64,000 nucleotides of DNA from Mycolicibacterium goodii (GTDB taxonomy: Bacteria > Actinomycetota > Actinomycetes > Mycobacteriales > Mycobacteriaceae). Of the stretch, positions 8,107 through 46,621 are shown piece after piece (the stretch's first letter is position 1; each line of letters starts with the position of its first letter). Under the pieces are notes generated by a model, which had not been told where the DNA came from, made no database searches, and saw nothing but the letters and a program-made list of their open reading frames with translations. The stretch spans positions 6,916,048-6,980,047 of the forward strand of contig NZ_CP012150.1 in NCBI RefSeq assembly GCF_001187505.1, given 5' to 3'. The position numbers and the translations under genes are program-made.

Positions 8107-9236
8107 ATGTACACGACGCGGCGCAACTTACTTTTCGGGACGGCGGCCACTGTGGTTGCGGCCATGGCCACGAGCGCATGCTCATCATCCTCGGCCCAGC
8201 AGCCCCAGGCCCAGCCCACCGCGCCGCCCACCCCGCCGTTCCAACCGAACCAGCGATACCCCGATCCGGCGATCGAGATCCTCGACCCGAGCTTCACCAA
8301 GTACCGCCTGTTTTCGAGCACGCTGGAGCGGGTGGCCACCGGCATGCGCTGGGCCGAGGGCCCGGTGTATTTCCCGGACGGCGGCTACCTGTTGTGCAGC
8401 GACACCCCGAACAACCGGATCATGAAGTTCGACGAAAAAGACGGCAGCTTCACGGTATTCCGCCATCCGTCGAACTACTCGAACGGGAACACCCGGGACC
8501 GCCAGGGCCGGCTGGTACGTGTGAGCACTCCGAGACGCGGCGCATCACCCGCACCGAGGACAACGGCGACATCACGGTGCTGGCCGACAGTTTCGAGGGC
8601 AAGCGGCTCAATGCGCCCAACGACATCGTGGTGAAATCCGACGACACCATCTGGTTCACCGATCCGCTGTTCGGCATCAACGGCGAGTGGGAGGGCAGCC
8701 GCGCCGAGCCCGAGCAGGCCACCACCAACGTCTATCGGCTCACCCCCGATGGTGAGATGACGGCGGTCATCACCGACCTGGTCAACCCGAACGGGTTGGC
8801 GTTCTCCCCCGACGAGAAGAAGCTGTATGTCATCGAGTGGCGAGGCACCCCGAACCGCAGCCTGTGGAGCTTCGATGTTGCCGACAACGGCACCGTCGCC
8901 AACAAGACCAAGCTGATCGACGCCGCCGACCAGGGCGCGCTCGACGGGTTCACCGTCGACCGCGACGGCAACCTGTGGTGCGGCTGGGGCAGCAACGGTC
9001 TGGTCGCCGACCAGCCGACCGACGTCGGCGGGCGCCAGGTGTACGAACTCCGCGGCAAGCCCGAAGATCTCGACGGCGTCAAGGTTTTCAATCCGCAGGG
9101 CAAGCCGATCGGTTTCATCCGCCTGCCCGAGCGCTGCGCCAACCTCACCTTCGGCGGGCCCGAGAACAACCGCCTCTACATGGCGGCGTCGCACTCGCTC
9201 TACGCGCTGTACGTGGAGGCGTTCGGGGCGACGTGA
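8107..9236 (+). pseudogene. SMP-30/gluconolactonase/LRE-family lipoprotein, frameshifted
   Basis: The product would be a secreted beta-propeller of the SMP-30/regucalcin type. A twin-arginine start (TTRRNLLFG) and lipobox (ATSAC, Cys about 25) are in the first frame, which is good to about 8515. From there the homologous sequence continues in another frame (CEHSETRRITRTEDNG, NAPNDIVVKSDDTIWFTDP, GLAFSPDEKKLYVIEW) to the stop at 9236. One base appears missing near 8516-8517: the second propeller half is otherwise uninterrupted. Either a recent null allele or a sequencing error. It ends 24 bp from the convergent defence-like operon. Confidence 0.85.
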
Positions 9237-9260
9237 CTGTTGTGCGAGTTACGTCCCGCC

Positions 9261-10286
9261 TTATCGCGAGCGCTCCCGCCGAAGCCAATCGAGGTCGCTC
9301 TCCCAGTCTGCGATCGCCGCAGACATATCCGCGTTTTTGCGTTTCGCGATACTGGCGAACCCGCTGAGACAACGTTCGATCTTCGCTGCGCGCTGCCGGC
9401 TGTTCGGAGGACCCCACTCCTGTATGTACGACTCAGCATCTGCTGACACAGCAACCAACTCAATCATCAACGCGTTACGCAGAATACGCCGCCGATGCTC
9501 GACGCCGAGCCCGTTCTTTCCTACTCGGTAACCTAGTTCACTTAGGACACCCGACTCTGGCCAATGACCAACATCGAAGTCAACGACGAGTTGGTGAATC
9601 GGCCGGTTGCTGATTTCGTCGTCCCACTGCGCCGTTACATCGCGCTCGTTGCCTTGCCCAGCAGGCGGTGGCCCTGGCGACTCTTTTCGCGACGTGGCGG
9701 CTTGGGCGGTTTTCAGATTAGGTTCGTCGTGCACCCACGGCAATATGGATACGATCCGCTGCCAAAAGGGCTTCTCCGCAGGACGAGGGGGTGCGACGTC
9801 AGTCAGTAAGTCCACGGTCGCGAGTGCCTCATCCATATCGGCATCGAAATCGGTGAAGAACCGGCGGTTGCGCTCGATGATCAAAGATGTCTTCTTGCCG
9901 TTGCTGCGGTAGCAAAGATCTGCGACTTCGTCGAGTAGCGGCGAGAGGCCAGTGACGAAGATCTGATAGCGCCCCGTCACATCCACTGTGGAGACTGCGC
10001 CGTCAGTTTCAACGCCGAACATTGCGGGCCGAGCGGTCGGTGAGATCGCGCGCAGGATGTAAAGCTCCGCAGGATCACACTCCAGCGCAACTGGATAACC
10101 CATCGGGAGGTTCTCGGCGAACCTGCTTACCGGCGGAAGCGCGCCTCCCCACCAGGTCGCAACACGCGATTCAAGCTCAGCTAATGCGCGTTTCCGCACG
10201 GCGTCATCTGCGTTAGGCAGTTGCTGGAGCCTATACACCATATGCTTACGTTGCGATGCAATGTCGGCGAAAGGCAACCGCTTCAC
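9261..10286 (-). CDS. Conserved protein of unknown function, fourth gene of the ATPase operon
   Basis: A 341-residue protein with no recognised catalytic motif. Two blocks are visible. Residues about 1-150 are mixed alpha/beta (ALECDPAELYILRAISP, GRYQIFVTGLSPLLDEVADL). The C-terminal 110 residues form a helical domain with YIQEWGPPNSRQRAAKIERC and AIADWESDLDWLRRE, a pattern that recurs at the end of many actinobacterial hypothetical proteins. A proline-rich linker separates them. Its ATG overlaps the stop of the preceding 124-residue gene by 4 bp, so it is translationally coupled to the HEPN-like protein and the ATPase. Function is unknown. Confidence 0.75.
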   Translation of the reverse strand: MKRLPFADIASQRKHMVYRLQQLPNADDAVRKRALAELESRVATWWGGALPPVSRFAENLPMGYPVALECDPAELYILRAISPTARPAMFGVETDGAVSTVDVTGRYQIFVTGLSPLLDEVADLCYRSNGKKTSLIIERNRRFFTDFDADMDEALATVDLLTDVAPPRPAEKPFWQRIVSILPWVHDEPNLKTAQAATSRKESPGPPPAGQGNERDVTAQWDDEISNRPIHQLVVDFDVGHWPESGVLSELGYRVGKNGLGVEHRRRILRNALMIELVAVSADAESYIQEWGPPNSRQRAAKIERCLSGFASIAKRKNADMSAAIADWESDLDWLRRERSR

Positions 10287-10657
10287 GTACTCGCGTCTCC
10301 TTTCGCTTGTTCTATGACGGCGTGCAGGTCCCTCAACAAACTCCGCACCTCGGCCACGGACGGCTGGAGCTCATAAGCGTGGTGGTGCACCGCCCTACTC
10401 AGTCCGTGCCACACCCGTTTGGCGGTCTCACCAAGCTCCTCTCCGCGAAGAGCTCCCAGCACCACCAGCTTCGAGCTGGTGGTCGGCGCCCGGTCGCTAT
10501 TGGCATGCACCGCCCACGACCGGCTGGTCTCGTCGAGCCAGTCTTCGAAAGCCCGACGCGCCAGCAGAGCCGCGGTGCGCGGACCCCGCACCCCTAGGTC
10601 GACGGTGCCGTTCAGTACCTGGTCAGCGTGGGCCAACAGTGCCGCGCGGTCGGTCAT
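10283..10657 (-). CDS. Small HEPN-like protein of the ATPase operon
   Basis: A 124-residue, all-helical protein. RRAFEDWLDE in the first half and LSRAVHHHAYELQPS in the second resemble HEPN-family nucleases. The R-x4-H arrangement in RAVHHH fits the HEPN RNase active-site pattern (Rx4-6H), but the family assignment is by eye. Start and stop each overlap neighbours by 4 bp (ATGA), between the SMC-like ATPase and the 341-residue gene. In known systems such as PrrC and RloC, an ABC ATPase controls a HEPN RNase, so this could be the effector. A structural or antitoxin-type HEPN is the alternative. Confidence 0.7.
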   Translation of the reverse strand: MTDRAALLAHADQVLNGTVDLGVRGPRTAALLARRAFEDWLDETSRSWAVHANSDRAPTTSSKLVVLGALRGEELGETAKRVWHGLSRAVHHHAYELQPSVAEVRSLLRDLHAVIEQAKGDAST

Positions 10658-13095
10658 GACGACAGCTTTGCAAGATCAGCGACGGCCAGTCGGGTGGCGT
10701 GGACAACCTCACGGTAGTTGGTGATGCCGTTGTGGGCGCCGGCTGTCGCTGTCTTCAGAGCCTGTCGGCGGGCCGACCCACCGGACAACCACCGGTCCAC
10801 GGCTGCGTCGTTGTCGGGATCCACCGCCAGCCCGAGCCGCCGTTTGGTCAATCGCGCGTTCTCCCAGGCCTGTTCGACGTCGGCATGCGCATGTCCCTGC
10901 CCCAGTCGGCGGGCACTGAACACGTCCCACGCCGTCGATTCCAACGCATCTCGGCATAACACCGGTACGGCGACCCGTTTGATCGCCTCAGGCACCGCAT
11001 CATCGGCGGCGATGGCGAAGGCGTCGTCGAGCATCCTCATCGCCGGTCGGCTCGCTTCCGTCACGCTGACAACGGAATTCACGCCACGGACCACCTCGAC
11101 CACACGCGCGGGTACGCGTGACCGACGGATGGCGGCGGGCAGCCGGTCGTCGTGTGTAAACACCACCACCTGACGCGTCTCGGCGAGTCTCGTCAGCACC
11201 TGCAGCAGCCCGTCAATCTTCGACGGGTCCATCGCCTGGATCGGGTCGTCGAGCACCAGGAACCGGAACGGGCTGGCCGGCGATGTCGCACGCGGAATGA
11301 ACACCGCGAGCGCAAGAGCCTGCAGTTCGCCTTGGCTCATGACACCGAAGGCTTCGGTGTCGGACCCGTCGACTTCGGCTTTGAGCAAGACCCGTCGGCT
11401 GGTTTTCTGGCCCACCAGCTGAATGGCGCCGAGTTCGACGTTGCTCTCCTGCCGCAGTGCCGCCCAGATCTGCCGGGATTGTTCGGCAAGCGGTGCGATG
11501 CGCTGGTTGCGCAGTTCGGCGGCGTTGTCCTGCAACCACTTCAACGCCTCCGACGCCACCGTGAGCTGCGGTTCGACCTCGTTGGCGAGTTCTGCCTTCC
11601 GAACCCACGCCGCCAGTTCCACGGCGATCGGGCTCCACGCGTCTTGGCGTGCCTTGATCAACGCGGCAGCTTCCTGCTTCAGCGCGGTGTAGGCGTCACG
11701 CAACTGTGGCAGTTTCTGCTCGACGTGGTCGGCAAGTGCATGTTGCCCGTCGACCGGAACGTCGGAGAACTGCGTGTACGCGGCCTGCGCTGTTGGCAGC
11801 GTGGAGAGCGCACCGTCCTCGGCCGCCGGCGGTGCATCGACTGATTCCACCAGATTGAGGACTCTGGCGCGCGCCTCGGCCGTCGCGCGCCGAGCCTCCG
11901 TCAACGTCTTTACCGACCGCTGATCCTGCTCCAGGACGGTCCGCGCTGCTGCCGCCCACTCGGCGGTGAGATCACCTTGCCCACACACCGGGCACTTCTG
12001 ATCACCATGGGCAGCATGGAACTCCAACCCCATCGACAACACCCGGCCCCGATCGGCCGCCAACGCATCCGCGTGTTCGACTTCCCGCAACTCCGCATCG
12101 GCCGCCGCTCGAAGCGCTTCGCAGGCCGCCGTTACTTCGTCGTCGGTCGGGGTCGACAGTTCGTCGGCCTGCCTCCAGGCTGCCGGAACATCGCCACCGG
12201 CTCCGCCGGTGATCAATGGGCGTAGAGCGTCGAGGTCGGGACGGTGCTTCTTCACCTGGATCAGAGCCTGGGCGGCACGCGGGTCCTCATGTGACTCCAG
12301 TTTGGCGCGCAACACGCTGCGCGCCTTCCGCCGTTCCTCCGATGGTTGTTTGAGCTCCCTGACCTCCGCGTCCAGGCGCGCCATCGCCTCGGTCAGCTGC
12401 TCCAGGCCGAGCAGCTTGTGCAGCTGGTCGTAGAACTTGCTGGGCGCGCCTTCGAGGATGCCGCCGAGTTCGTCGTAGCTCAAAAGAGGCCGGTACATCT
12501 CGAGTGCGCCGGCCCACCCCAGCACGCTGACGTCTTCCCGTTTGCGTGTCGGCCGCTGCACCCAGCATGAGCAGTCGTCGACTTCGACCTCGTCACCGGC
12601 GGGCCAGTCCACTCCGATTGTGGTTGCGCCCGAGCCTTCTTCGGCCAGAACCACACGGAGCTGCGCCGGTTCCCCGGCGTGCAGGTTGCGCCAGCTCTGC
12701 GACCACACTCCGGGCTTGTCGCCCCACCGGGAGTTCTTGCCGGTAAGTGCGAGCTCAAGCCCTTCGGCGAGTGTGGACTTGCCGGAACCGTTTCGTCCGG
12801 CGACGACGGTCAGGCCGGGCCCGGGTTGGAAGTTGAGCGTGACCTCGGGCCCGATTCCCCGAAAACCCTGCACGGTGATCGAGCGTAGATAGGCCCCGAC
12901 AGGTTCTGTCGTGTCTTCTTGGGCGGTGGTCAGTGACTCCACCAACTCGGGCCGGGTTGCGGTGTCCCCCAACACCTCTGTGAGGTCATCGGACCCTTCC
13001 AGCGCGGCAAGCACCACGAGCTTCGCCTGCTCACTCAACGTGTCATCGCGGTCGGCCAGCGACAACACGAAATTCTTCAGACGGTCATCCGACAT
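10654..13095 (-). CDS. Rad50/RloC-like ABC ATPase with a CxxC zinc hook
   Basis: An 813-residue SMC-type ATPase. Walker A is GRNGSGKST near residue 103. A coiled coil runs either side of a zinc-hook motif CPVCGQ at about residues 367-372. The ABC signature appears as SQGELQALALAVF near 585, and Walker B as FLVLDDPIQAMD near 612. After the D-loop a helical domain of about 150 residues remains (CRDALESTAWDVFSARR), possibly a HEPN-related docking or sensor domain. It follows the OGG-like gene after 39 bp and overlaps the HEPN-like gene by 4 bp. Single hook and partner genes recall RloC, PrrC and Lamassu, but it matches none of them exactly. Confidence 0.85.
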   Translation of the reverse strand: MSDDRLKNFVLSLADRDDTLSEQAKLVVLAALEGSDDLTEVLGDTATRPELVESLTTAQEDTTEPVGAYLRSITVQGFRGIGPEVTLNFQPGPGLTVVAGRNGSGKSTLAEGLELALTGKNSRWGDKPGVWSQSWRNLHAGEPAQLRVVLAEEGSGATTIGVDWPAGDEVEVDDCSCWVQRPTRKREDVSVLGWAGALEMYRPLLSYDELGGILEGAPSKFYDQLHKLLGLEQLTEAMARLDAEVRELKQPSEERRKARSVLRAKLESHEDPRAAQALIQVKKHRPDLDALRPLITGGAGGDVPAAWRQADELSTPTDDEVTAACEALRAAADAELREVEHADALAADRGRVLSMGLEFHAAHGDQKCPVCGQGDLTAEWAAAARTVLEQDQRSVKTLTEARRATAEARARVLNLVESVDAPPAAEDGALSTLPTAQAAYTQFSDVPVDGQHALADHVEQKLPQLRDAYTALKQEAAALIKARQDAWSPIAVELAAWVRKAELANEVEPQLTVASEALKWLQDNAAELRNQRIAPLAEQSRQIWAALRQESNVELGAIQLVGQKTSRRVLLKAEVDGSDTEAFGVMSQGELQALALAVFIPRATSPASPFRFLVLDDPIQAMDPSKIDGLLQVLTRLAETRQVVVFTHDDRLPAAIRRSRVPARVVEVVRGVNSVVSVTEASRPAMRMLDDAFAIAADDAVPEAIKRVAVPVLCRDALESTAWDVFSARRLGQGHAHADVEQAWENARLTKRRLGLAVDPDNDAAVDRWLSGGSARRQALKTATAGAHNGITNYREVVHATRLAVADLAKLSS

Positions 13096-13134
13096 GACAC
13101 CCTCGATCCCCCGAGCCGCAACGCTTCCGGCGAA

Positions 13135-14088
13135 TCATCCCGGCGCACCTGCGTGAGCGAACAGCGCATACTCCACGACGTCGGGTGCCTGGTTCCACGC
13201 CGGATTGGCTGCCCACGTTTCGGCGAGATCCAAGTACCTCAAATAGTCGTCTCTGCGCACCCAGCCGCGTGCAGGCACCGTCCCCGGCGCCACGACTGCC
13301 AGGGCAGCTCGTACGCGTTCGTCGAGCACCAACGGCCGCCGGTGTTGGTGGCACGTGTAGCCGGCGTAGTACAGCAGCTTCGTCCCGAACGACATGCCCA
13401 GCCCGCGGATCTTGTGGGTGTCCAGCAGTGCGCTCCAGCCCGCGGCCGCCCCTTTTCTGCGGGTGGCCTCGACGATCGCATTGATCTTTTCCACCGCCCC
13501 GTCCTGCGCCAGCACGGCGGCGGTGCGCTGCGGGCCATAGTCCTTGGGCTGGTATCCCCACGCCATCGTCATCAGGAACAGATCGACGGGATCCCGTTCG
13601 GACTGGGCGTGCAAGAAGCTGCGCGCAATACCGCCTGCCTCTTCGACGTGCTCGCGCAGATCGGCGTGAGCCTGCTCGTGGCCGACGAATACACCCGCCC
13701 AACGTTCGGGAATCCAGCGGTTGCGCTGGGAGTCGACGTGGACGGAGGTGTACCGCCGCACGATATGTGGAATCTCGCTGACAAGCCAGGTGCCCGAGTC
13801 AAATCCGCCAAGTTCGGAGAGGGTGCGGTGAATCTTTGCGTCGATGTCGGCCTGATCGATGCCTTGGCATTCCACCAGGGTCCTCAGCATGTCGGTGACT
13901 TCAGCGAGACCACAGATCAGCTGCTGACGATCGTCGACCACCTGCTTGAGTTGGTCGACTTCTTCGCTCAGCTTGTTGACCAGCGCCCGCGCGAAGTCCC
14001 CGCCCGATAATCGACGTGCTTCAACAGACCGGCCCGCCCCGCGAAGCATCTCCGGTACGCGTTCACGGACAAGTTCTCCGTCAGTCAC
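13135..14088 (-). CDS. MazG-like / OGG-like glycosylase fusion protein
   Basis: A 317-residue fusion. Residues 1-105 resemble the phosphoribosyl-ATP pyrophosphohydrolase-like MazG branch: GELVRERVPEMLR, then KLSEEVDQL and LAEVTDML. The canonical ExxE-(n)-ExxD motif is degenerate, with Q replacing one acidic residue, so NTP cleavage is doubtful. Residues about 160-317 match the actinobacterial 8-oxoguanine glycosylase (OGG)-fold family: MAWGYQPKDYGPQRT, the helix-hairpin-helix KIRGLGMSFGTKLLYYAG near 231 and RPLVLDERVRAAL. It is the first gene of a four-gene operon with an SMC-like ATPase, suggesting a DNA or nucleotide damage sensor. GTG start; no clear Shine-Dalgarno. Confidence 0.75.
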   Translation of the reverse strand: MTDGELVRERVPEMLRGAGRSVEARRLSGGDFARALVNKLSEEVDQLKQVVDDRQQLICGLAEVTDMLRTLVECQGIDQADIDAKIHRTLSELGGFDSGTWLVSEIPHIVRRYTSVHVDSQRNRWIPERWAGVFVGHEQAHADLREHVEEAGGIARSFLHAQSERDPVDLFLMTMAWGYQPKDYGPQRTAAVLAQDGAVEKINAIVEATRRKGAAAGWSALLDTHKIRGLGMSFGTKLLYYAGYTCHQHRRPLVLDERVRAALAVVAPGTVPARGWVRRDDYLRYLDLAETWAANPAWNQAPDVVEYALFAHAGAPG

Positions 14089-14371
14089 CTTTTGCTACTC
14101 CCACGACTTAACGACAAATAGATAGCACATATAACCATGCTGGATCACGCGTCGGGGTGCACTTTGAGATTTCCAATGGTTTTGCGACATAAGGTTCCCC
14201 AACGTTTCTCCGTTTCACTCGACCACCACAGCGTGGGAGCCGCAACAGAATGGCAGAGGTGTTCCTTGCCGCGCAGTCGGTCGAACGTCCATTCTTTGCT
14301 CAATTTCATCCGCGGCGACAGTGGTGTGTTCCGGTTGAAAGAGGCCGGCAAGTTCTGATGAATGGGGTCCA
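14089..14371. other. Intergenic region upstream of the OGG-ATPase operon
   Basis: AT-richer than its surroundings. It must hold the promoter of the minus-strand operon: reading leftwards, TATCTATTTGTCG near 14115-14130 is a plausible -10 region. No convincing gene is seen on either strand; short open frames there lack Shine-Dalgarno sites and recognisable sequence. Confidence 0.4.
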
Positions 14372-14533
14372 ATGAACGATTCGGTAGGACGCGGGTACGA
14401 CGTCATCGGTGACGTGCACGGATGCGCGTCCCAACTCGGGGGCTGTTGCACAAGCTCGGAGCTGGGTCTGCTGCACGTATGGGTGACATCTGAGTTGGCT
14501 TGCCCAGGATGGGCGGGCTGGAAGGATGTCCCT

Positions 14534-14842
14534 ATGGCAAGGCCTTATCCCCGCGAGTTCCGCGACGATGTCGTGCGCGTGGCCCGCAACCGTGACGACG
14601 GGGTGACGATCGAGCAGATCGCCACCGACTTCGGTGTCCACCCGATGACCCTGCACAAATGGCTTCGCCAGGCCGATATCGACGAGGGCACCAAGCCGGG
14701 CAAGAGCACCAGCGAGTCCGCTGAACTGCGGGAACTGCGTCGCCGCAACCGTCTGCTGGAACAGGAGAACGAGGTGCTGCGCCGGGCCGCAGCCTATCTG
14801 TCACAGGCCAACCTGCCGGGAAAAGGCTCTACCCGCTCGTAA
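14534..14842 (+). CDS. IS3-family transposase OrfA
   Basis: A 102-residue helix-turn-helix protein: YPREFRDDVVRVARNRDDG, then IEQIATDFGVHPMTLHKWLR, then a leucine-zipper segment (ELRELRRRNRLLEQENEVL). It binds the IS ends and regulates transposition. The slippery GGGAAAAGG near 14818-14826 lies before its stop, so part of the product should fuse with OrfB. Confidence 0.9.
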   Translation: MARPYPREFRDDVVRVARNRDDGVTIEQIATDFGVHPMTLHKWLRQADIDEGTKPGKSTSESAELRELRRRNRLLEQENEVLRRAAAYLSQANLPGKGSTRS

Positions 14843-15699
14843 AAGAGCTCGCCGCCGACGGGATCCCCGTCGCGGTGACGTGCCGGGTACTCAAGCTCGC
14901 CCGCCAACCGTATTACCGCTGGCTGGCCACCCCAGTCACCAACGCCGACCTCACCGAGGCATACCGCGCCAACGCCCTGTTCGACGCACACCGCGAGGAC
15001 CCCGAGTTCGGGTACCGCTACCTGGCCGAAGAGGCCCGCGACGCCGGCGAACCGATGGCCGAGCGCACCGCGTGGCGCATCTGCTCGCAGAATCGCCTGT
15101 GGAGCGTGTTCGGCAAGCGCAAACGCGGCAAGAACGGCAAGCCCGGCCCACCAGTCCACGACGATCTCGTCGAACGTGACTTCACCGCAGAGGCGCCGAA
15201 TCAGCTGTGGCTGGCCGATATCACCGAACACCGCACCGGTGAGGGCAAGCTCTACCTCTGCGCCATCAAAGACGTGTTCTCCAACCGCATCGTGGGCTAT
15301 AGCATCGATTCGCAGATGAAGTCCCGACTGGCCACCACCGCGTTGGCCAGTGCGGTGGCCCGTCGCGGTGAGGTCGCCGGGTGCATTCTGCACTCGGATC
15401 GCGGATCTCAGTTCAGGTCAAGGAAATTCGTACACGCGCTGCACCATCACGACATGGTCGGCTCCATGGGCAGAGTCGGAGCGGCCGGAGACAACGCCGC
15501 CATGGAGAGCTTCTTCAGCCTGCTGCAGAAGAACGTCCTGAACCGCCGCCGTTGGGACACCCGCGAGCAGCTACGCATCGCGATCGTCACCTGGATCGAA
15601 CGCACCTACCACCGCCGACGCCGCCAGGCACGCCTCGGCCGGTTGACCCCCATCGAATTCGAAGCCATCATGACCACACCGGCCAGTCAGGTCGCGTGA
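14821..15699 (+). CDS. IS3-family transposase OrfB (DDE integrase), -1 frame
   Basis: The catalytic part of the transposase, read after a -1 frameshift at the A-run near 14821-14824. The frame continues without interruption as KRLYPLVKELAADG. The integrase core has the DDE triad: first D in LWLADITEH, second in ILHSDRGSQF and E in NAAMESFFSLL. An internal start at 14875 is possible. The frame is intact to 15699, so the element may be active. Confidence 0.9.
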   Translation, partial: KRLYPLVKELAADGIPVAVTCRVLKLARQPYYRWLATPVTNADLTEAYRANALFDAHREDPEFGYRYLAEEARDAGEPMAERTAWRICSQNRLWSVFGKRKRGKNGKPGPPVHDDLVERDFTAEAPNQLWLADITEHRTGEGKLYLCAIKDVFSNRIVGYSIDSQMKSRLATTALASAVARRGEVAGCILHSDRGSQFRSRKFVHALHHHDMVGSMGRVGAAGDNAAMESFFSLLQKNVLNRRRWDTREQLRIAIVTWIERTYHRRRRQARLGRLTPIEFEAIMTTPASQVA

Positions 15700-16109: not shown

Positions 16110-16709
16110 ATGACAGATCACGAACTCAGCTCAACGGATGCTGCTGTGCGCCAACGGCTGACCGAACTGTGCGTTCACATCCCGTGCGGCGGAATCCGCG
16201 GACCCATCCAGCGAGGCGCCTACGGCCCCACGGTCTGGCAGTCGTGCCGTTGCGAGGACCGCCCAGCGAGATGGCCGGGAGCCGACGTCTCGCGGTTGAA
16301 AGATTTGTGCATCATCTGCTTTCGGGGGACGGCAGGCGGAGTCTCCCGGTGGTCGTGGTTGGCCTGCGAGGATTGCCGCGCTGTCAATTCGACCATCGGT
16401 CAGAGTTGGGGCGTCAAGCCGTTCCGGCTCGGCCGACACAGCCTGATGAACGGCGTCGGCGTGCAGGGAGGCACAGCACCGGAGATCCGCGCCGAACAAC
16501 TGGCGCGCCTGGCCGAGTTCGCCCGTGGCGATGGCCGACTAAATGAGTGGCGTCGTACCGAATACTCGCGGCTGGCAGCATCTTTCGATCCGCTGGCCGA
16601 TGTTCCACTGCGCATCTGGCAAGAGACGCACCCACCGAGTCGGGCCGCATCCTGGGATGCTTTCAGCCGGGTGATCGGCCCGGATGTGCCGATCAGAGGT
16701 CCGCGGTGA
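16110..16709 (+). CDS. Hypothetical cysteine-rich, probable zinc-binding protein
   Basis: A 199-residue protein with no recognised family. Cysteines are grouped in the first half (CVHIPC, CRCED, CIICF, CEDC), which suggests one or two zinc ribbons. The C-terminal half is Arg- and Trp-rich (LAEFARGDGRLNEWRRTEYS). The ATG at 16110 is preceded by a weak GGCGAG. Its 3' end overlaps the convergent NrtR-like gene by 17 bp. A promoter-like TATACT lies at 15953. Confidence 0.6.
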   Translation: MTDHELSSTDAAVRQRLTELCVHIPCGGIRGPIQRGAYGPTVWQSCRCEDRPARWPGADVSRLKDLCIICFRGTAGGVSRWSWLACEDCRAVNSTIGQSWGVKPFRLGRHSLMNGVGVQGGTAPEIRAEQLARLAEFARGDGRLNEWRRTEYSRLAASFDPLADVPLRIWQETHPPSRAASWDAFSRVIGPDVPIRGPR

Positions 16710-17388
16710 TGCCGCGCCGACGACCGGACCGGCCGCCGTCGCGGCGGCGGAACAACTCCGCCGGCCGTCCTCTGCCGCGGGACACCGTGGCACCGGTCGC
16801 GGCGAGCTGCGGTTCCATCGACCGCCGGAAGGTGTCCCGTTGCAGCTCGTGTCCGGTGATCGCTTCGTGGGTCAGTCGAAGGTCACGCAGCGTGAACTCG
16901 TCGCCGAGCAGATGGTCCGGATCGGGCCTCGACTCGTAGCGGGCCCGCACCTCGGCGACGGCCAACGCGATGATGTCGGCGTGGTCATAGATGAGTCTTC
17001 CCGGTGTGTGCGTCGGTACCAGTCGGGTGGACTCGGGAAAGCGGCTCGCCACCCGTTCCGGCGGGACGACGGCGACGTGCGCCACCGACAACACCCACCC
17101 GCGGTCGTCGCGGCCCGGGTCGTCGAACACGTGTAACTGCCGTGGCCGCAGCCCATCCACGTTGGCCTTGGTCGACAGTGCCCGGTTCACCGCGTCGGTC
17201 AGGGTCTCCCCCGGATGCAGGAAGGTACCCGGCAGAGCCCACCCACGGCCCCCGGCCCTGCGGACTTGCAACACCGACAACCCGGCTGCGGGGTCGATGG
17301 TGAGCACCGCGGCGTCCACGGCGACCGACGGCCGCGGATAGTCCGCCAGAATCCGCCCGCCGGTGTCCCGATAGCCCTTGTTGTCCAT
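16693..17388 (-). CDS. NrtR-like Nudix-related transcriptional regulator
   Basis: A regulator of about 231 residues. The N-terminal 140 residues are Nudix-like (AAVLTIDPAAGLSVLQVRRA, GRGWALPGTFLHPGETL); the Nudix box is degenerate, as is usual in NrtR proteins that bind ADP-ribose rather than cut it. The C-terminal part is a winged helix (FTLRDLRLTHEAITGHELQRD). ATG at 17388 is preferred over TTG at 17418 because conserved sequence begins there. It is divergent from an ADP-ribosylglycohydrolase, whose product fits the likely ligand. The shared intergenic region has a palindrome at 17422-17435. Confidence 0.8.
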   Translation of the reverse strand: MDNKGYRDTGGRILADYPRPSVAVDAAVLTIDPAAGLSVLQVRRAGGRGWALPGTFLHPGETLTDAVNRALSTKANVDGLRPRQLHVFDDPGRDDRGWVLSVAHVAVVPPERVASRFPESTRLVPTHTPGRLIYDHADIIALAVAEVRARYESRPDPDHLLGDEFTLRDLRLTHEAITGHELQRDTFRRSMEPQLAATGATVSRGRGRPAELFRRRDGGRSGRRRGITADL

Positions 17389-17421
17389 GTCGGTATGCCA
17401 GCGTACAGTTATCAACAATTA

Positions 17422-17435
17422 GCGCAATAATGCGC
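17422..17435. promoter_or_regulatory. Palindrome GCGCA-ATAA-TGCGC, candidate NrtR operator
   Basis: Perfect 5-bp arms around a 4-bp spacer, placed between the divergent NrtR-like gene and the ADP-ribosylglycohydrolase, 6 bp before the latter's Shine-Dalgarno. Position fits repression of both genes. Binding is inferred. Confidence 0.45.
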
Positions 17436-17456
17436 AAAATAAAGGAGGTGGCCGCG

Positions 17457-18908
17457 ATGGCATCAGTCAATGATCGGATCGAGGGCGTCCTGCTGGGCAC
17501 GGCAACCGGTGATGCGCTCGGCGCGCCCTACGAGTTCCAGCCGGCACGAGGCCCCGAGCTGCCCGTGGACATGGTGGGCGGCAGGCCATGGGAGCCCGGC
17601 GAATGGACCGATGACACCGACATGGCGATCGCGATCGCCGAAGTCGCCGCCACCGGGGCGGATCTGCGCGGGGAGGGGGCCCAGGATGCGCTCGTGGCGC
17701 GCTGGCACGAATGGTCGCTGCGCGCCAAGGATGTCGGCATCCAGACGCGATCGGTGTTGTCCGGCGCCGCTCGCGGCGGCGACATCTCGGGTGCGCGTGC
17801 CCGCGCCGCGTCCGCTGTATTGCACGAGCAGACCGGCCGAACCGCCGGCAACGGTTCACTGATGCGGACCGCGCCGGTCGCACTGGCCTATCTCGACGAC
17901 GAGGACGCCCTCGTGGTCGCCGCCCGAGCCATCAGCGAGCTCACCCACTTCGACCCCGATGCCGGTGATGCCGTGGTGCTGTGGTCGTGCGCCATTCGCC
18001 ACGCAGTGCTGACGACCGAGCCCGACGTTCGGATTGGCCTCCGCCACCTCGACGTTGATCGCCGCAAGGTCTGGACAGAGCGGATCGAGCAGGCGGAGTC
18101 CGCGCACCCGTCGGACTTCGCCAACAACGGCTGGGTGGTTGCGGCACTGCAGGCGGCCTGGTCGGCAATCACCACGACGGCGGGGCGGGCCACTACGTCG
18201 CGTGCCGAGCATCTTCGCCTCGGCCTCGACGCCGCGGTCCGAGCCGGAAACGACACCGACACCGTCGCCGCGATCGCCGGCGGTCTGCTCGGTGCGGCGT
18301 ACGGCGCCTCGGCGGTGCCGTTGGAGTGGCGCCGCCTGCTGCACGGGTGGCCCGGCATGACCGCACGTGACCTCGTCGCGTTGGCGAACACCGTGGCGAG
18401 CAAGGGCAAGCCCGTTCGTGGGCCGGTCTACTCGGGCTTGCGGATCGACACCCTTGCGAGCCACCCGCACGATCGGAATGTGCTCCTCGGCGGTGTGGGG
18501 ATCCTGCGCAACCTGCCGCCCGAAGTGGACGCGGTGGTGTCGCTGTGCCGCGTCGCCGATGATGATGTCCCCCAGCAGATGCCACATGTTGAGGTCCGGT
18601 TGATCGACAGCACGGACCCGGAGGAGAACCCACACCTGGACTTCGTGCTGACCGAGGCCGTGCGTGCCGTCGAGCGGTTGCGCGCGGAGGGCCATACGGT
18701 GCTTCTGCACTGCGTCGAGGCCTACAGCCGCACCCCCACCGTCGCGGCGCTCTATGGTGCGCGTCTGCGCAACATCAACATTGACGACGCACTGCAAGAT
18801 GTCTTGGCTGCGCTACCGCACGCGAAACCGAATCCCGTGTTCCGCGACGCGTTGCGCCGGCTGGGTAGTGTGCGCCTCATGCACGAAGGGGCATACCGCC
18901 GTGACTGA
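17457..18908 (+). CDS. ADP-ribosylglycohydrolase fused to a dual-specificity phosphatase domain
   Basis: A 483-residue bifunctional protein. Residues about 5-310 are a DraG-type ADP-ribosylglycohydrolase: EGVLLGTATGDALGAPYEF, metal-binding WTDDTDMAIAI and GNDTDTVAAIAGGLLGAAYG. Residues about 330-475 are a dual-specificity phosphatase-like domain with HCVEAYSRTP, a C-x5-R active site. The protein could remove ADP-ribose from proteins or nucleic acids and dephosphorylate a linked substrate. The start is fixed by an excellent AAAGGAGGTG 6 bp upstream. The divergent NrtR-like gene probably controls it through ADP-ribose. Confidence 0.88.
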   Translation: MASVNDRIEGVLLGTATGDALGAPYEFQPARGPELPVDMVGGRPWEPGEWTDDTDMAIAIAEVAATGADLRGEGAQDALVARWHEWSLRAKDVGIQTRSVLSGAARGGDISGARARAASAVLHEQTGRTAGNGSLMRTAPVALAYLDDEDALVVAARAISELTHFDPDAGDAVVLWSCAIRHAVLTTEPDVRIGLRHLDVDRRKVWTERIEQAESAHPSDFANNGWVVAALQAAWSAITTTAGRATTSRAEHLRLGLDAAVRAGNDTDTVAAIAGGLLGAAYGASAVPLEWRRLLHGWPGMTARDLVALANTVASKGKPVRGPVYSGLRIDTLASHPHDRNVLLGGVGILRNLPPEVDAVVSLCRVADDDVPQQMPHVEVRLIDSTDPEENPHLDFVLTEAVRAVERLRAEGHTVLLHCVEAYSRTPTVAALYGARLRNINIDDALQDVLAALPHAKPNPVFRDALRRLGSVRLMHEGAYRRD

Positions 18909-20179: not shown

Positions 20180-20472
20180 GGCGTCGTGATCCTCTCCAAG
20201 ACCGTCGGGCGGTGTTGCCGGACATGAACATCGGGAAACCGGGCAAGTAAGGCACAAACGAAGGCGGATCGCTTGACGTTCAGTTCGTTCAGCAGCTCGA
20301 CCTGGCTCACGTTGCGCCCACCCCGGTCGTCGTAGTGAGCGGCAGGCTGGCTGCCGAGCTTCTGGAGCTTTTTCGCACCAGCGGGCTTGGATGCCGGTAC
20401 CGCAGGAATCTCAAGAATGCGAACCGCTTCGGCACCATCATCTGCTCTTGATCGGCAGTCACAACACCACAA
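20176..20472 (-). CDS. Hypothetical protein, second gene of the DUF3320 helicase operon
   Basis: Up to 98 residues. The C-terminal half (SQVELLNELNVKRSAFVCAL, then ARFPDVHVRQHRPTV) looks genuinely coding; the N-terminal half is low in structure (PAVPASKPAGAKKLQKL). Only a TTG at 20472, overlapping the 3' end of the large helicase gene, can start this frame, so the N-terminus is uncertain. Its stop overlaps the next gene by 4 bp. Function is unknown. Confidence 0.5.
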   Translation of the reverse strand: MWCCDCRSRADDGAEAVRILEIPAVPASKPAGAKKLQKLGSQPAAHYDDRGGRNVSQVELLNELNVKRSAFVCALLARFPDVHVRQHRPTVLERITTP

Positions 20473-23400
20473 GTCCCGACGGCGATATCTTCAACACTCC
20501 CCTATCGACGGCGGACTTCAGCGCGTCGTCGAGCCGAGCGCCAATCGCCTGGGTGACGCGGCGACCGCCAAACAACGCAAGCGCTTCGCGCTTGAGTTCC
20601 TCGCGCTCGATGCCGCCGGTCTGCTCGACGACAATCGACATGGCGTTGCCGATCTCGAGCAGGCTGACCTCATCGAGAGGTCGGCTCGCGCCTGCTTCGG
20701 GCTGACGCACAAACCGCCATTCGTCGGGGTTCACGCCCGCGGCCCAATAAAACTCGTCGCGTTCGCGCCGGTATTCGGCCGGCACGACTTGTTGAATCGA
20801 CCTGCGGCGGTCGTCGTTGACCCGGCCCAGTTCGAATGCCCCGGCGACGAGCTTGGCCAGCCGGTCCCGGTGAATCGGCGCCTCGGCTTCGATGATCTCG
20901 CGAACCACCGTCAGCACCTGACTCTTGGCCCACTGACCCGGAAGCGCATCGAGCACCGATTTGTCGCCGGCGATGCGCGGCGACCATTCCCGGAACGGCT
21001 GAATGTTGGGGTGTCCTTTGGGTTTCGGCGGCGCCACGGTGGGTGCCGTTTTCATCGGTCCGATCGTCACGGACTCGCGCTCTGACTCAGAAGCCGGCGG
21101 GGGGATCACGAGAGTCGGAATTTCCACAGGCTCGGACGGCTTCTCCACTGGCTGCGTCAGCCGGTGCTTGGCGTCGCTGACCGCTTGGCGAATCCGTTCG
21201 ATCGTCGCCTCCCGGTAGTTGAGCCACTCCGGCATCCACACGCGTTCGACGGACGGCCAGTGCATGAGGTTCGACAGGACGTCGATGGGCAGCCCGTCGC
21301 GGTCGGCGACGGTCCTGCGGCGGTACCACTCTGCGCCATCCAGCAGGACGGCGACGAGCGCGCGGTCGGGCTCGTCGGGATCGGCGATCACCAGGTCGAC
21401 GCGGAACTCCGACAACCCGACGTCGGTGCGGACGACGAAACCTTCGCTGCGCAGGGCATCGGCGATGTCGTCGCGATGCCGGTCGATCACCGGTTGGCGC
21501 TTGCCGCCGTCGATGATGGCCTCCACGCCGCGCGCCGCGAGCTCCAGGTACGCCTTGAGATGTTTGGTGCCGACCTGCGTGGTTTCCTCCGCGCGCAGAT
21601 CCGCGGGATCAAAGCTGGCGTAGAGCACCACTTCCCGGCGCGCACGCGTGACGGCCACGTTGAGGCGACGCTCCCCACCTGGTCGCGACAACGGGCCGAA
21701 GTTCAACGGCAGGACACCGTTTTCCTTCTTGCTGAACGCCACCGAGAACAGGATGGTGTCGCGTTCGTCGCCCTGCACGTTCTCCAGGTTCTTGACGAAC
21801 AACCCATCAGGTTCGTCCAGCGCCGCCAGCAGGCGCTCGTCGCGAGTGTCGCGCAGCATGTTCTCGATCAGGTCACGCTGCTGCGCGTTGAAGGTGATCA
21901 CACCGAGCGACGGCGCTTTTTCGGGTGATTCGGCGAATCGACGCCGGATGTCCTCCACGATGCGTTCGGCCTCGACCCGGTTGGTGCGCAGCGTCTTTCC
22001 TTTACCGGACCGGTCGAAGTGCCCGTCGACTCGCACCAGCGAGATGCCGTGCCCCGCGGTGCCGGCGTGCGGTGCGGGGAACGACGCCAGCTGGCCGCCG
22101 TAGTAGTGCATGTTGCTGAACGCGATCAGCGCTTCGTCCTGGCTGCGGTAATGCCAGGACAGCCACTGCTGCGGAACCCGCGCGTGCACACACTCGGTCA
22201 GGATCGACTCTTCGTCGGCGACCACCTCGGGGTTGTACTCCTCGTCGTCGTCGACGGTGGCGTTCGCCTCGGCGAAGCTCGTCGGCGGCATCTGCTTACT
22301 GTCGCCCACGACCACAACCGATTTCGCGCGTCCCATGGCGCCGATCGCGTCGGCGACCCGGATTTGCGATGCCTCGTCGAATACGACGATGTCAAAGATG
22401 TCCGAGCGCGCGGGGAAGAACCGTGCGACCGAGTCCGGGCTCATCAGCGTGCACGGCAGAATCTGGGTGATCAGTTCCCCGAAGTTGTCCATTAACGCGC
22501 GCACGCTCATTCCGCCGCGCTTGCGGTCAAGCTGACGGCGCAAGCCACCCACCTGCCCGGTGTCGGCGGCGGCGTCGAACTTGCGGCTGCTCAGCAACTC
22601 CGCGGGGATGGCCCGACGGAGCTCTTCGCGGATCGCGCTGGCACTGGAGGTGAAACGCTGAATCGTCTTGCTGTGGGCGGTGACATCGAAGTCGCCGAGG
22701 GCGCTGGCTTCGAGACGTTCGGTGACCGACGCCCGTGCCGCACCGTGATCGAACGCCAACGGCGCGTCCTCGGGCACCACCATGCCCTTGAGGATGTCGA
22801 CCCGGACGTGGTCCATACCGGCCTTGCGCAGCGGCTCGACATGGGTGACCAGATCAACCCAGCGTTCCGCCGAGGCCGGCGTCTGCAGCTTGCGGTCGGC
22901 ACGTGTCGTCCACCACTGCTCCAGAAACGCGCCCTCGCCCGCCCACATCCGCTGTTGGTTCTCGGAGGTGCCGGTCACCGCGCTCAGCCGTTCCCAGGCG
23001 GACGCCAGCCGCTGCAACGGCTGCGCCAACACACCCTGGTGGGTGTCTCGGTAGAAGGTGCGCATCGCGCTGACCCGCGGGTCATCCGGATGCTCGGCGA
23101 GGATCGTTCCGACGCGACGCACCGCGGCCAGAGATCCAGCGAGGCGCGCGGCATCCTCACCGACAAGCGGATTCCAGGACGTATCGATCAGCTGGGCGGG
23201 CAACATCGCGACACGGCTGCGGAGATCCGACACGTCGCGATACGTCGCCTCGATGTCGGCGGTCAGCGTGGACAGTGTCTTGAGCTTCACCGTCGACGGG
23301 TCGACCGCCAGCACACCGGCGAGCTGCTCACGCACGGCGCGCCGCCGCTTCTTGCGGCCGAAGAAGCCGGACTCGTCCGCTTCGACCGCGGACTTGTGGA

Positions 23401-26400
23401 TCGCCGGGATGTCGAGGTCCATCGCTGCCGGCGTGGCGGTCGACAGCCAGTCCGGTTGCGTCGCAGCGATCTTGGCCGACAGCTGCTCGATGCCGTTGAG
23501 CTGGTGCTGGCCGTTCGCCGCGTGCAGGCTGTCGACGGCCTCCAGTGGGAACCGGGGTTCGGCCGCCAGCCGGGCCCAGGCGTCCACGGCGATGGGGCTG
23601 TGCGCCTTGGCGAGCTGCTCGAGGGCCAGTCCGCCCTCCAGCACGTCTTCCAGCGCCGCATCGAACTCCACCGCGGCGGTGTAGACCTCCGCCGCGTCGA
23701 GACCGGTGGCGGGAACCGCGTCGATGAATCCCCACGCGTGCTCGCGGCGGGGCCGCGCCAAGTCGACCTTCTCCGGCAGTCCGCGCATCACCTCGTCGAC
23801 GGCGTCCAAGATCGACGGGTCCGCGCTGGCCACCAGGGATTTCGGCACCTCGAACGGCTCGACGTCGGGATCGGCGGCAAGCTCACGCGAGCGTGCGGTG
23901 TAGAGCGAATGACCGACGGCGTTCATCTCGTGCAGACGCTCGGCGTATCGCGCGAGGCTGCGGCGGCTGGATTCGGCGGACTGCAGTTTGGTGCGCAACA
24001 GGTCGGCGTCGTGGCTGACCCGCAGCTCCAGGGCCTCCTTGATCTGCGCTCGCACCGCGGCCGGCCGCGCCGACTTGTCGTGCAGATCCAAGGACAGTTC
24101 GCCCAGGCCAACACTTTCCAGACGTTTCTTCACCACGTCGAGCGCGGCGCGTTTCTCCGCGACGAACAACACCCGCCGCCCGGCCGCCATGGCGTGGGCC
24201 AACAGGTTGGTGATGGTCTGCGACTTGCCGGTGCCGGGAGGGCCCTCCAGGACGAAGGTCCGCCCACCGACGGCCTCCGCCACGGCCCGCAGCTGCGAGG
24301 AGTCCGCGGGAACCGGGACCGACGCCCCCAGTTGGTCGAGGTCGACGTCTTCCGACGCGGGCACCGGATCGTTGAACTGATTGGTCGGGGTCTCGATCAG
24401 GTGCTTCACCAAGGGGTTGCGCGACAGCACTTCCCAGGAGTCGTCGAGGTCTTTCCACAGTGGGAACTTGGCGAACTGCAAGATCGACAGGTGCACGGTG
24501 TCCTCGACGCGGAAGGCCAGACCGGCGTCGGCGATCGCGCGGCGCACGGAGGTGAAGGTGCCGGCCAGGTCGATGCCGGAGGCATCCTCGTCGGGGTTGG
24601 CCAGGCCGGGAATCTCCAATCCGAGTGCGGTGCGGAGCTTTTCGACCAGGCAGTAGTTGGGGGTGGACACGCCGGCTTCGTCGATGGTGAGCACGTAGCT
24701 CTGGCCGCGGTTGGACGTGTTCAGCGACACGGGCACCAAGATGAGCGGTGAGCGCAGTTCCCGGTCATTGAGGTGCCAGCTGAGCATCCCGAAGCCGAGG
24801 TAGAGGTTGTTGGCCCCGGTCTCTTCGCGGATCGTTCTCGCCTTGTACGCGAGGTTACGCAGTCCGCGTTGGTAGGACGCGTCGGTGATGTCGATGTAGG
24901 CGCTGTGCTTGTCGGCGAGCAGCAGTTCGCGTTCCTGCTCGGGCAGGTCGCGGCCGAATCGGATGCCGCGGGCCTGGTCGACGCTTTTCACCGCATCCGA
25001 GGCCAGCAGCGTGATCTTGTCGCCGGCGTTGATGGCGTCCTCGAACCGGGCGAGAGCCGGGCCGGGGATGTCGATGCGGAAGCCGGCACGGTCGGTGAAG
25101 TTGATCAACCGGTTACGCAGGCTGAGGTCGAGCAGGGCGTTCTTCCACTGGGTGATCCGAGCCGGGACAGCACCCGGCGTCACGGCCGGCTTGGTTTCGG
25201 TGGCCACGTACGGCATGATCACCGGGCCGTTGGCCGGTTTGTACTCGGTGACAACGACATTGCCCTGGTCGTCGACCGCGCGGCTCGGCAGCGGATAGAT
25301 CCGCGCCTGCCGGGCCTGGCGGATGTCGGTGATGCCGATGACGTCGCTGAGCCCGTCGGACAGGTGTTTGATCCGTGGGAGAGCGCGGGCGTCGGCGAAG
25401 GTCGCGCCGTCGGCCGACTGGGTGACCATCGTGGTCTCGATCAGGCCGATGGCGCAGAGGTCGACCTGGTTGGCCACCTCGACCGCCTCGGTCGTCGACA
25501 CGGTGCTCAACGCCGAGTTGGTCCGCCAGTAGCCGAGGAAGGCGTGGCCGCGCAGCACCCAGATGGTGGTGTTGATGCCGGCCTGCTCCAGCACGGCGGC
25601 CATCGTCAGGGTGGTGTCCAGGCAGGTCCCGAGTCGACCCTCGAGGACTTCCGCTGGGGTGCGGACCTTTTGGCCGTCGTCGCCCCAACTGGCCGGGGGT
25701 TCGGCGTAGCGGATGTCGCAGGCGCGCATCGCCTCGAACACCGCCCGGGCGATCGCGTCGACCCGGTCGGGATTCTCACTCTGGTAGCCGTCGATTGCCG
25801 AGTTCCCGGTGGCCTGCAGCAGGCGGTCGGACACCTTCGGCATGAGGGCCGCGACGGCCGCGGAGTTCGGCTGGACGTAGGCGGCGAGCATTTCCAGCGC
25901 GAGCTGCGTCGGCGACGCTTTCCACTGGTTGGCGGCCAGCACGTTGACCGGGTGCGCCGCCTCGGCGAGGGCGGCGCCGGCGGCGTCGCGGACGACGACG
26001 CGGATGTCGGCGGGTCGCTGCTCGTCGACGGTGAGCATGGAGGCGGGGTCGAGTTTGAGGTCGACATCGCGCAGCGTGGTCGGCCGGCCGGGTGACAGGT
26101 CGGCGTGGACTTCGCGCGGGCCGCCGTGCGAGCCTTCGGCACTGACGACGTCGATCTCGATCGTGGCGCCCAGCAGATCCCCGAAGGTGTTGTCGATGGT
26201 GATGTGGTCGATCACCGGGATGCGGCAGTGCGCCATCGCGTAGCTGAGGTCCGGGATGGCGGCGATGTCGATGCGCGGTGCACCGGGCTGCGGAGGTCGC
26301 GGTGGGGTGGGTACGCGGGGTGCGGTTTTGGTGGCCGTGTTCGTCGACACCGGTGTCTCGGAGGTGGCCGGCGTGTCCGTTTTGAGCGGTGAGACCGCGG

Positions 26401-30600: not shown

Positions 30601-32880
30601 GCCGCCCGACGAATTGAAGACAATCGCATCCAGTTTGTCGTAGACGTCAGGGCCAGTGGAAATCTCTCGGCGCAGCACCTGACGCACCAAGTCACGATGA
30701 TGGTTCCGCGCTACGCCCGCGGCCGTCCGTGCCGCGTCGTCGCGGCTGTCGGTGAAGACGATGGTCTTCGCGTCGGCAACACCCTCAGTGCCAGACCGTC
30801 CCTCGGCAAGGGATCGGATCAGCTGCGACAGATACAACTGGGTGGCAGCCGCAGCACCCGAAGTGTGTGCCCTGATCGTCGACGAGACCTGGCCGGCACG
30901 GAAAGCGCCCTTACTCAGTGGGCTTCGAGGCGCGTAACCGCAAGCTGGGCAGCGGTCCGGCAGGCCCGGTATGCGGTCCTCGGCCCCCGCACCCTTGAAG
31001 CGCAGGGTCACCCCAGTGGGATTTGGCCCGTTGACGGTTGCCATTCCCAGCGCGGGGTTCCAGTTTGTGGGGGCGAATGCCAGCTCAATCTTGTCTTTAG
31101 TCCAGGTAGCGAGTTCAGCGGGAATCCCAGGCCGATACCACACGAATTCGTCTGCGGGCCGAAGAAAGACCGGCTTACCGCCCTGAGCCTCATTGATTGC
31201 GGTCGGTGACAGCAACACCTCGTTGCCCGTACGCGCCACCACGAACCCACCGAGGCTAATGTCACCGCATTCGTAGCAATACAAGAGCTCCAGCACTCGT
31301 GAGCCGCAGTCGATGCACGAGGTGACGGGGGTGTTATAGATGCGGCCAACGCGGCGATCCGGCCCCCGCTGAGCGACACCCTTGCACTGAGGGTTGCTGC
31401 ATGCCCACACGCCGCGCGGGACCCGCACGAATGCGTGTGCGCGCAGCGCGATCACCGGCTCCTGTGTTTTTTCGGTGTCGGCCGCAGCAAGTTGCTCTAG
31501 TACGGTCTCGAAAAGTGAGTCTGCCTCACCGCTGTCGGGGAACAAGCGACGCGCTATGACGTCGGCAGCAGTAGCCCGAAGCCGATCTTCCTCGGGATCG
31601 TGGCAATGCGCCGCTACTGCATGCGACAGCTCTGCTGGCGAGATTGTCCCAGCGCGAAGTGCATCCGGGTCGATTCGCGTCGGGGGATTGAGTGGGATCT
31701 GCTTGCCGGGTTGGATGGTGAAGCTCTCCCCCGCCAGTCCGAAAAATTCCTCGAGGTACTTCCGCCCGTCCGAGGAGTCGGTGAGCGACGCCGACGTGGC
31801 GATCGTCCTCAGCTGGGGACTGTCCGGCGTCAGTCCCAGCCGTCGAAGCAGCGCTCTCAGAATCATCGCAACTTCGCTGCCCTGCGTGCCACGGTACAGG
31901 TGGAGCTCATCCACCACGAGTGTGAACGCATTCCTGTCATCGCTCCGAAGCCAGCTGGCGGTCTGTTCGAACATCGGAGTCTCGATGTGGCGCATCATCA
32001 TCGTGTTGAGCATCGAGTAGTTGGTGACCAACACATCGGGCGCGTGACTAATCATGTCCCATCGGGTGAGCATCTCGCCCGATTTCGGGTCAGGAAACTG
32101 GCTGAGGTCGACATCCTGCCCGCGGTCACGGGCCTTCAGGAGTTCTTCGTATTGACGGCCATACCCGCGCAGGTCCGCGGCGGCCTCCGCCACCGCTGCC
32201 CGCGAGCGTGAGGCGGTGCCCATCGTATTGCCCGTGTATCTCCCGAACCAAATCGGATGGCGCGGGTCTTTGCCCCGCAATACGCGGACCGCGCGGCGCA
32301 AGCGAGTCATCTGGTCTTCGACCAGCGCGTTCGTCGGGTAAAGAATCAATCCCCGGATGCCTGGCTGCCGGGTTTCTGGGCCCCGCAGCGGTTTCCAACC
32401 GTCCTGAGCTTCCCACCACCAGTCTTCGGCGGGCTGTGGGGCCCAGGTCTTCGCTTCGGCCGCAATTCTCAACAGCAACGGGAGCAGGAAGGACTCGGTC
32501 TTACCGGACCCTGTGCCCGAGGTGACGACGATATTTCGCCCGTCGGATCGGCCATCGCGGAAATGGTGCAGTACCGACTTGGCTTGATGTTCACGCAACG
32601 CCAGGTCCTCGGGGGCAACCGAGGGGAACAACGCCGCACCGACCGCCGCCGTAACCTCGGCAGTCAGACCCGCCTCGCGGCCGACCTCCATCAGTTTCGC
32701 TGAGTTTGCGTAGGGAACGATCGGCTCAATCATCAGGCGGCCCAGAAGGGCACCCGGCAGCTCCAGCAGACGGCGCCGCTCCTCCATCACCGACTCGTCG
32801 TTGAGCCAGAATGCCGTGTCGAAATACCGCAGGTATGCGTCCCGGAGTCCTTCGGCGAGTGAAATCGGAGTTATAGTCAT
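27619..32880 (-). CDS. druE: DruE-like DUF1998 DEAD/DEAH-box helicase
   Basis: A 1753-residue SF2 helicase. Walker A SGTGSGKT is at 121-128, the DEAH-type box is DELHLYRG near 323, and the helicase C-terminal motif [10 protein letters not shown] is near 1100 with QQRVGRAGR after it. The C-terminal part is the DUF1998/MZB domain, with cysteine cluster [14 protein letters not shown] near 1625. Two further CxxC pairs lie mid-protein. Size and layout fit DruE of Druantia; DISARM splits these parts into two proteins. It follows the 1031-residue gene after 17 bp and shares its transcript. Role in blocking foreign DNA is known for Druantia and inferred here. Confidence 0.8.
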
Positions 32881-36161: not shown

Positions 36162-36168
36162 CCCGCTT

Positions 36169-46620: not shown

Positions 46621-46621
46621 C

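Follow-up and report, generated by a model that had tools for sequence, protein, structure and literature searches.

A conserved gene pair encoding a Rad50-like ATPase and a predicted HEPN-fold protein in Mycolicibacterium goodii, a putative defence cassette

Mycolicibacterium goodii, whose 7.1 Mb genome consists of a single contig (NZ_CP012150.1), carries an operon of four genes encoding a MazG-OGG fusion protein, a Rad50-type ATPase, a protein of 124 amino acids (aa) and a protein of 341 aa. The operon lies in a stretch of 64,000 nucleotides of this contig, here called the window, and all coordinates are positions within it. A preliminary description had presented the four genes as one candidate defence system. 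Here we report that the conserved unit is the ATPase gene together with the 124-aa gene, not the four genes, and that this pair, which is real and conserved, probably forms a split version of a Rad50-HEPN defence cassette.

The operon and its genes

The four open reading frames of the preliminary description were all confirmed on the minus strand at the same coordinates. The genes and features of the operon are listed below; the positions of the ATPase motifs were taken from an alignment of 40 relatives.

14088-13135, minus strand: MazG-OGG gene, 317 aa
13774..14088, minus strand: MazG-like (nucleoside triphosphate pyrophosphohydrolase) domain, residues 1-105 of the 317-aa protein, from the PF01503/PF03819 matches of its relatives
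13153..13737, minus strand: OGG-like DNA glycosylase domain, residues 118-312 of the 317-aa protein, PF21790, E 1.2e-41
13095-10654, minus strand: Rad50-type ABC ATPase gene, 813 aa, with SMC_N, AAA_23 and AAA_21 Pfam matches
12775..12798, minus strand: ATPase Walker A GRNGSGKS, residues 100-107
11983..11994, minus strand: ATPase zinc hook CPVC, residues 368-371
11326..11337, minus strand: ATPase ABC signature SQGE, residues 587-590
11224..11262, minus strand: ATPase Walker B and D-loop, residues 612-624
10657..11028, minus strand: ATPase C-terminal helical extension, residues about 690-813, missing in 17/17 ATPases that lack the partner
10657-10283, minus strand: gene of the 124-aa protein, HEPN fold by predicted structure
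10379..10387, minus strand: HxH motif of the 124-aa protein, residues 91-93
10286-9261, minus strand: gene of the 341-aa protein, accessory, no Pfam, PADLOC or NCBIfam match
14089..14313, minus strand: upstream region with nucleotide similarity to genome G077, possible promoter location

The 39 bp gap between the MazG-OGG and ATPase genes was also confirmed. Two ATGA overlaps had been described, and the one between the ATPase and 124-aa genes has this sequence; the overlap of the 124-aa and 341-aa genes is likewise 4 bp long but reads GTGA, because the 341-aa gene starts with GTG. The coding status of the first three genes is backed by conservation and that of the 341-aa gene by two full-length relatives with 56-61% identity. 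The closest named relatives of the ATPase in a scan of genome contigs belong to Mycolicibacterium and Mycobacterium. Positions 10337-14313 resemble locus L112 of genome G077 at 83.5% nucleotide identity (L and G numbers are our handles for loci and genomes), and a promoter may lie in the conserved upstream region; no sigma-70-like site was found in 9000-14500. Directly upstream of the operon, IS3-like transposase genes were read from the sequence at 14372-15699.

The ATPase and its small partner

The conservation of the pair was assessed in several sets of loci. The best 80 of 83 ATPase loci of the genome contig scan were taken, from which the short and weak L081 and L082 (27-30%) were dropped, leaving 78 loci (L003-L080). 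Nine further regions of the genus were picked from the top ATPase matches, not at random, and a class-level set took 40 of 68 places, excluding fragments, some repeats and places in the window's own genus. The sets share genomes (both Jiangella, for example), and some of the 78 loci have a broken ATPase (L044 and L067, for instance). Adjacency was scored by profiles, as a small gene behind the ATPase gene on the same strand at a distance of -60 to 400 bp.

By this measure all 78 scan loci and all 9 further genus regions have the small gene behind the ATPase gene, and so do all 23 class-level loci in which the ATPase extends into the C-terminal part; the small gene of L014, the only one of the 78 missed by plain tblastn, was found by the profile. 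It is absent from all 17 class-level loci whose ATPase stops near model position 685. A start codon in a 4-bp overlap with the ATPase gene is present at 94 of 105 loci and, in the first set without its repeat genomes, at 67 of 76; these are upper figures because the script took the start nearest that position. Across 76 loci, the pairwise distances among the ATPases track those among the small proteins (r 0.88; maximum of 999 permutations, 0.119), as expected of genes that are inherited together. Pairing by chance was rejected, the pair being retained across ATPase identities of about 38-88%.

The zinc hook CPVCGQ and the signature SQGELQ, from which the ATPase had been described as Rad50-like, are both present, and the two hook cysteines (C368, C371) occur in 40 of 40 aligned relatives. 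Equally invariant in the 40 are S587, Q588, G589 and E590 of the signature, D616, D617 and P618 of the Walker B/D-loop segment, and seven of the eight positions of Walker A, the remaining S104 being kept in at least 90%. Rad50 proteins have Asp-Glu where this ATPase has Asp-Asp in Walker B. A profile search of the PDB gave 18 matches below E 0.001, which are of SMC or Rad50 type, two of them titled only uncharacterized protein. There was no match to the ATPase in phages, and viral contigs gave short pieces of it only.

The small protein and the C-terminal part of the ATPase are absent together, which suggests that the two are in contact. The C-terminal extension also has a weak profile similarity to the 124-aa protein (P 0.015, above all 30 column shuffles, and P 0.028 in another comparison), a weak hint of homology. 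No conserved Rx4-6H motif was seen within the aligned block of ATPase C-terminal sequences. The truncated relatives (L216, L220-L235) have conserved surroundings, and a gene read as encoding an SMC-like protein of ~1500 aa lies upstream in 16 of the 17.

Such constant surroundings, shared by one family in 17 genomes and including MaoC- and MurB-like neighbours by reading, would suit a DNA repair pair, in which an SbcC-like ATPase works with a structural partner outside defence; the SMC- and Rad50-type PDB matches agree with this. The paired form, on the other hand, is patchy within one genus, has variable surroundings with defence genes and includes a HEPN-fold partner, and we regard a repair role as doubtful. 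A window-type ATPase match of at least 400 bits occurs in 45 of 297 genomes of the genus, M. goodii included, and the cassette is therefore accessory.

Among named defence systems, PADLOC matches the ATPase best to mad3 of MADS (1.2e-25, best stretch 471-652), but this match covers parts of the protein only and is far under the NCBI cut-off for MAD3 (19.2 bits against 420 with NCBIfam). A PADLOC model of LmuB matches at 1.3e-20, with its best stretch at residues 222-657, and the pair could be a divergent Lamassu (ABC-3C/Ddm) system with the 124-aa protein in the role of LmuC. PMC10586767 describes Lamassu, ABC-3C and DdmABC as combining an SMC-like ATPase, with a CPxCG hook in many LmuB, and a small partner, as found here. 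The gene order differs, however: the small gene follows the ATPase gene, whereas LmuC is the middle component, named so by its place in the operon. The Walker B segment has Asp-Asp in 40 of 40 relatives where LmuB generally has Glu changed to Gln, and the ATPase has 813 aa against about 650. Neither an LmuA-type effector nor a shared upstream gene family is conserved beside the pair across loci, and the small protein has no Pfam or PADLOC profile match. Pfam contains ABC-3C models, and none of them is among the matches obtained. A divergent Lamassu system is unlikely on these grounds.

The preliminary description had likened the 124-aa protein to HEPN RNases, and a HEPN fold is supported by the AlphaFold model (pLDDT 91.9) and by structure comparison with VIA-align over the 1000 chains ranked highest by Foldseek. 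The model has the four-helix up-down arrangement of HEPN proteins, which often include a further element between helices 2 and 3, and HEPN or HpeT appears in the titles of 14 of the first 28 structure matches. Among 88 relatives, E38, H91 and H93 are invariant, and R27 and R34 are kept in 87. E38 lies in predicted helix 2 (residues 22-49), and the HxH motif where the fourth predicted helix passes into the last loop; this matches the HEPN arrangement given in PMC3710099, an acidic residue in helix 2 and histidines before the last loop.

The Rx4H motif fared less well. The string R88-x4-H93 is present in the protein of the window, but R88 occurs in only 28 of the 88 relatives, and a catalytic Rx4H was rejected as a conserved motif of the family; an arginine at a spacing of 4-6 residues precedes H91 in 33 of 88 and H93 in 28 of 88. 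HEPN families with the histidine but without the arginine do exist, according to PMC3710099. Sequence searches with the small protein gave nothing above the Pfam cut-off, no PADLOC or NCBIfam match, and nothing below E 0.49 in the PDB with its profile. Its comparison with the Swt1-type HEPN domain of a neighbouring 2120-aa protein scored below shuffles.

HepT-MntA toxin pairs are among the folds closest to the model, which, together with the overlapping genes and the strict co-inheritance, would fit a pair of toxin-antitoxin type, with the ATPase merely restraining the HEPN protein. The invariant hook and the full set of ATPase motifs suggest instead an active DNA-binding machine, and we consider mere restraint quite improbable.

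The attached genes

None of the other loci examined in the ATPase neighbourhood survey holds all four genes, and the locus comparisons rejected the four-gene set as a conserved unit. Locus L112, with an ATPase of 88% identity, has the first three genes, with the MazG-OGG gene split by a frameshift that is possibly a sequencing error. The similarity to the window breaks off within the last part of the 124-aa gene, beyond which the 341-aa gene is replaced by others.

The 341-aa gene is an add-on. Full-length relatives of its product were found in 2 of 296 other genomes of the genus, and matches of any kind in 11 of 297 with M. goodii counted. Both full-length relatives (G020, G135) lie far from the ATPase, beside genes read as type I restriction genes. 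Partial relatives stand behind the same pair in G270 and 8 kb from it in G199, and the ATPase occurs in 6 of the 11 genomes with a match, compared with 45 of 297 overall, so a loose link between the two is possible. Relatives of the 341-aa protein were noted at L247 (5166-8134) and L248, near genes read as an Hsp90-like ATPase and type I restriction genes.

The OGG domain described for the first gene was borne out by Pfam, and all 18 aligned rows have its Lys-Asp pair (K237, D256). NCBIfam and PADLOC gave no match to the 317-aa protein. By motif position we read the Lys-Asp pair as equivalent to K249-D268 of OGG1, which is named in PMC13160076. The MazG-like domain stood in part: relatives match PF01503/PF03819, but the protein of the window has no Pfam match there and its acidic site is degraded, with CGLAEVTDM in place of the consensus EELADVTEV. 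This protein and relative P0244 have lost the E-x-x-D core, which the remaining 16 of 18 rows (14 distinct sequences of 16) retain. The fusion family comprises 105 relatives at E 0.001, of which 35 cover at least 90% of the query. Two of them, P0005 (88% identical) and P0244 (about 87-88%), suggest that further strains carry these genes. A single partial match was found in phages, and none in viral contigs.

In G185 and G218 (loci L151 and L152) the fusion gene overlaps an HNH-type gene by 4 bp; the HNH match of G185 is just under the Pfam cut-off, and the gene of G218 was read as its homologue. OGG-like genes elsewhere adjoin genes with GmrSD_N (L155), HNH_2 (L170), UDG (L175) and DUF4268 (L190) matches; these neighbours were picked by hand, others being without a match or unrelated (a kinase or cyclophilin, for example).

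OGG-like genes near the ATPase were counted at E <1e-8, by which L018, L020, L021, L024 and L065 (E 6e-6 to 5e-5) were dropped. They occur in 7 of 87 other loci, 4 of the 78 (L023, L044, L050, L053) and 3 of the 9 (L112, L113, L120), at distances from adjacent to about 7 kb, with opposite orientation in L053 and L113 and a broken ATPase in L044. In two Jiangella species (L023, L050) the OGG-like gene follows the small gene on the same strand. The chance expectation is about 0.06 in 1.74 Mb, from 47 OGG places in 249 genomes assumed to be of about 5.5 Mb. A control on type IV mREase islands gave 0 of 20 in 0.36 Mb, which is too small a sample to tell, so that a specific OGG link is not separable from clustering in islands. 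Three loci (L113, L114, L115) carry a separate MazG-like gene whose end lies about 60 bp or less from the ATPase start, with the acidic pattern kept apart from one change in L114; these ATPases are about 65% identical to that of the window, and a single recruitment may therefore account for all three cases. A MazG-like gene is also present in one of the 20 control islands.

These observations bear on the original model, in which all four proteins form one system: the MazG-OGG protein would excise bases, the ATPase respond, the HEPN protein cut RNA and the fourth protein take part. The single operon with its short spacings speaks for it, as do the excess of OGG-like genes near the ATPase, the Jiangella arrangement, the MazG-like neighbours and the co-occurrence of the 341-aa family with the ATPase. 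DNA glycosylases also act in defence, as with Brig1 (PMC11078745) and Brig3-BapA (PMC13160076), where the glycosylase is encoded in a defence setting and the range of Brig3 is widened by its operon partner; here, by contrast, the OGG-like family is fused to a MazG-like domain and stands with a Rad50-like ATPase. Against the model, 80 of the 87 other loci have no OGG match below 1e-8 in the surrounding DNA fetched, and the sole other copy with context carries the frameshift. The fusion gene overlaps an HNH-type gene instead in L151 and L152, the MazG site is degraded in the window, the full-length 341-aa relatives lie far from the ATPase, and the OGG enrichment may reflect defence islands alone. 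A joint function of all four proteins is thus improbable.

Defence setting and proposed mechanism

The locus sits in a defence island with Druantia II and PDC-S37, whose genes lie with a C5 methylase gene about 6 to 23 kb from the operon:

20459-26821: 2120-aa PDC-S37 protein with Swt1-type HEPN, DUF4011, helicase and MTES_1575 nuclease domains, PADLOC 5.2e-288
27619-32880: DruE, PADLOC E 0
32898-36248: DruF, PADLOC E 0
37121-38482: C5 cytosine methylase, on the strand opposite to DruE and DruF

In relatives the flanks of the cassette are rearranged. Seven proteins encoded near the ATPase were picked by hand, and the six large ones match PADLOC (type IV mREase, type IIG RM, MkoA, PDC-S37), while the seventh, an OGG-like protein, has no PADLOC match. 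The ATPase is present in 10 of 28 genomes with a type IV mREase, against 45 of 297 across the genus, by our own counts. A PDC-S37-related protein was noted near the cassette in 6 of 78 loci, and that of L045 was confirmed as PDC-S37. The window further holds genes for an NrtR-like regulator and an ADP-ribosylglycohydrolase/phosphatase (16693-18908), two families also seen close to the cassette elsewhere (7 and 8 of the 78 loci), and an ERCC4-domain protein with an Lsr2 DNA-binding domain, adjoining a HipA-like gene (45514-47902).

We read the pair as a two-gene putative defence cassette with exchangeable attachments, a split RloC-like sensor and HEPN effector, and give this reading a probability of about 0.5. 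According to PMC3710099, a Rad50-like ATPase is joined to a HEPN fold in RloC and PrrC, with a zinc hook in RloC, and RloC is activated upon DNA damage, the logic proposed here for the pair. In the present family, unlike in RloC and PrrC, the HEPN-fold protein is encoded by a separate gene in all 110 survey entries that have it, the arginine of the HEPN Rx4-6H motif is not conserved, and the ATPase has a C-terminal helical extension of its own. Two observations weigh against the reading: the RNase motif is incomplete in most relatives, with R88 in 28 of 88, and the 17 truncated ATPases all come from one family in one genomic setting and may therefore represent one event or a separate branch.

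We infer a mechanism in which an ATPase dimer, closed by the zinc hook, would watch for DNA ends or damage, while its C-terminal helical domain would hold the HEPN-fold partner in a complex. On DNA in the ATP state the ATPase would release or rearrange the partner, which would then be toxic by cutting or binding host RNA and stop growth, much as RloC does within one chain. The OGG-like glycosylase, where present, could attack modified or damaged bases of incoming DNA and thereby supply lesions to the ATPase; in other genomes, other nearby systems that attack DNA may supply them.

Triggering by base excision is a possible model. In its full form, which we hold only tentatively and think doubtful, the OGG-like protein would remove modified bases, the ATPase would recognise the abasic sites or breaks, and the HEPN-fold protein on its C-terminal domain would shut the cell down. 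The pair would then be a general alarm into which modules (OGG, HNH, GmrSD-type, type IV) are plugged according to the neighbourhood.

A literature search of titles and abstract openings, whose coverage leaves out most subscription journals, gave no description of the ATPase-HEPN pair. If the pair defends, it would be an actinobacterial immune unit that is unnamed as a system in PADLOC-DB of 2023, Pfam and NCBIfam. The RloC-like build would come in two pieces, and sensor and effector are therefore testable apart. The OGG-like genes beside the pair and beside HNH and GmrSD genes hint that DNA glycosylases serve as weapons.

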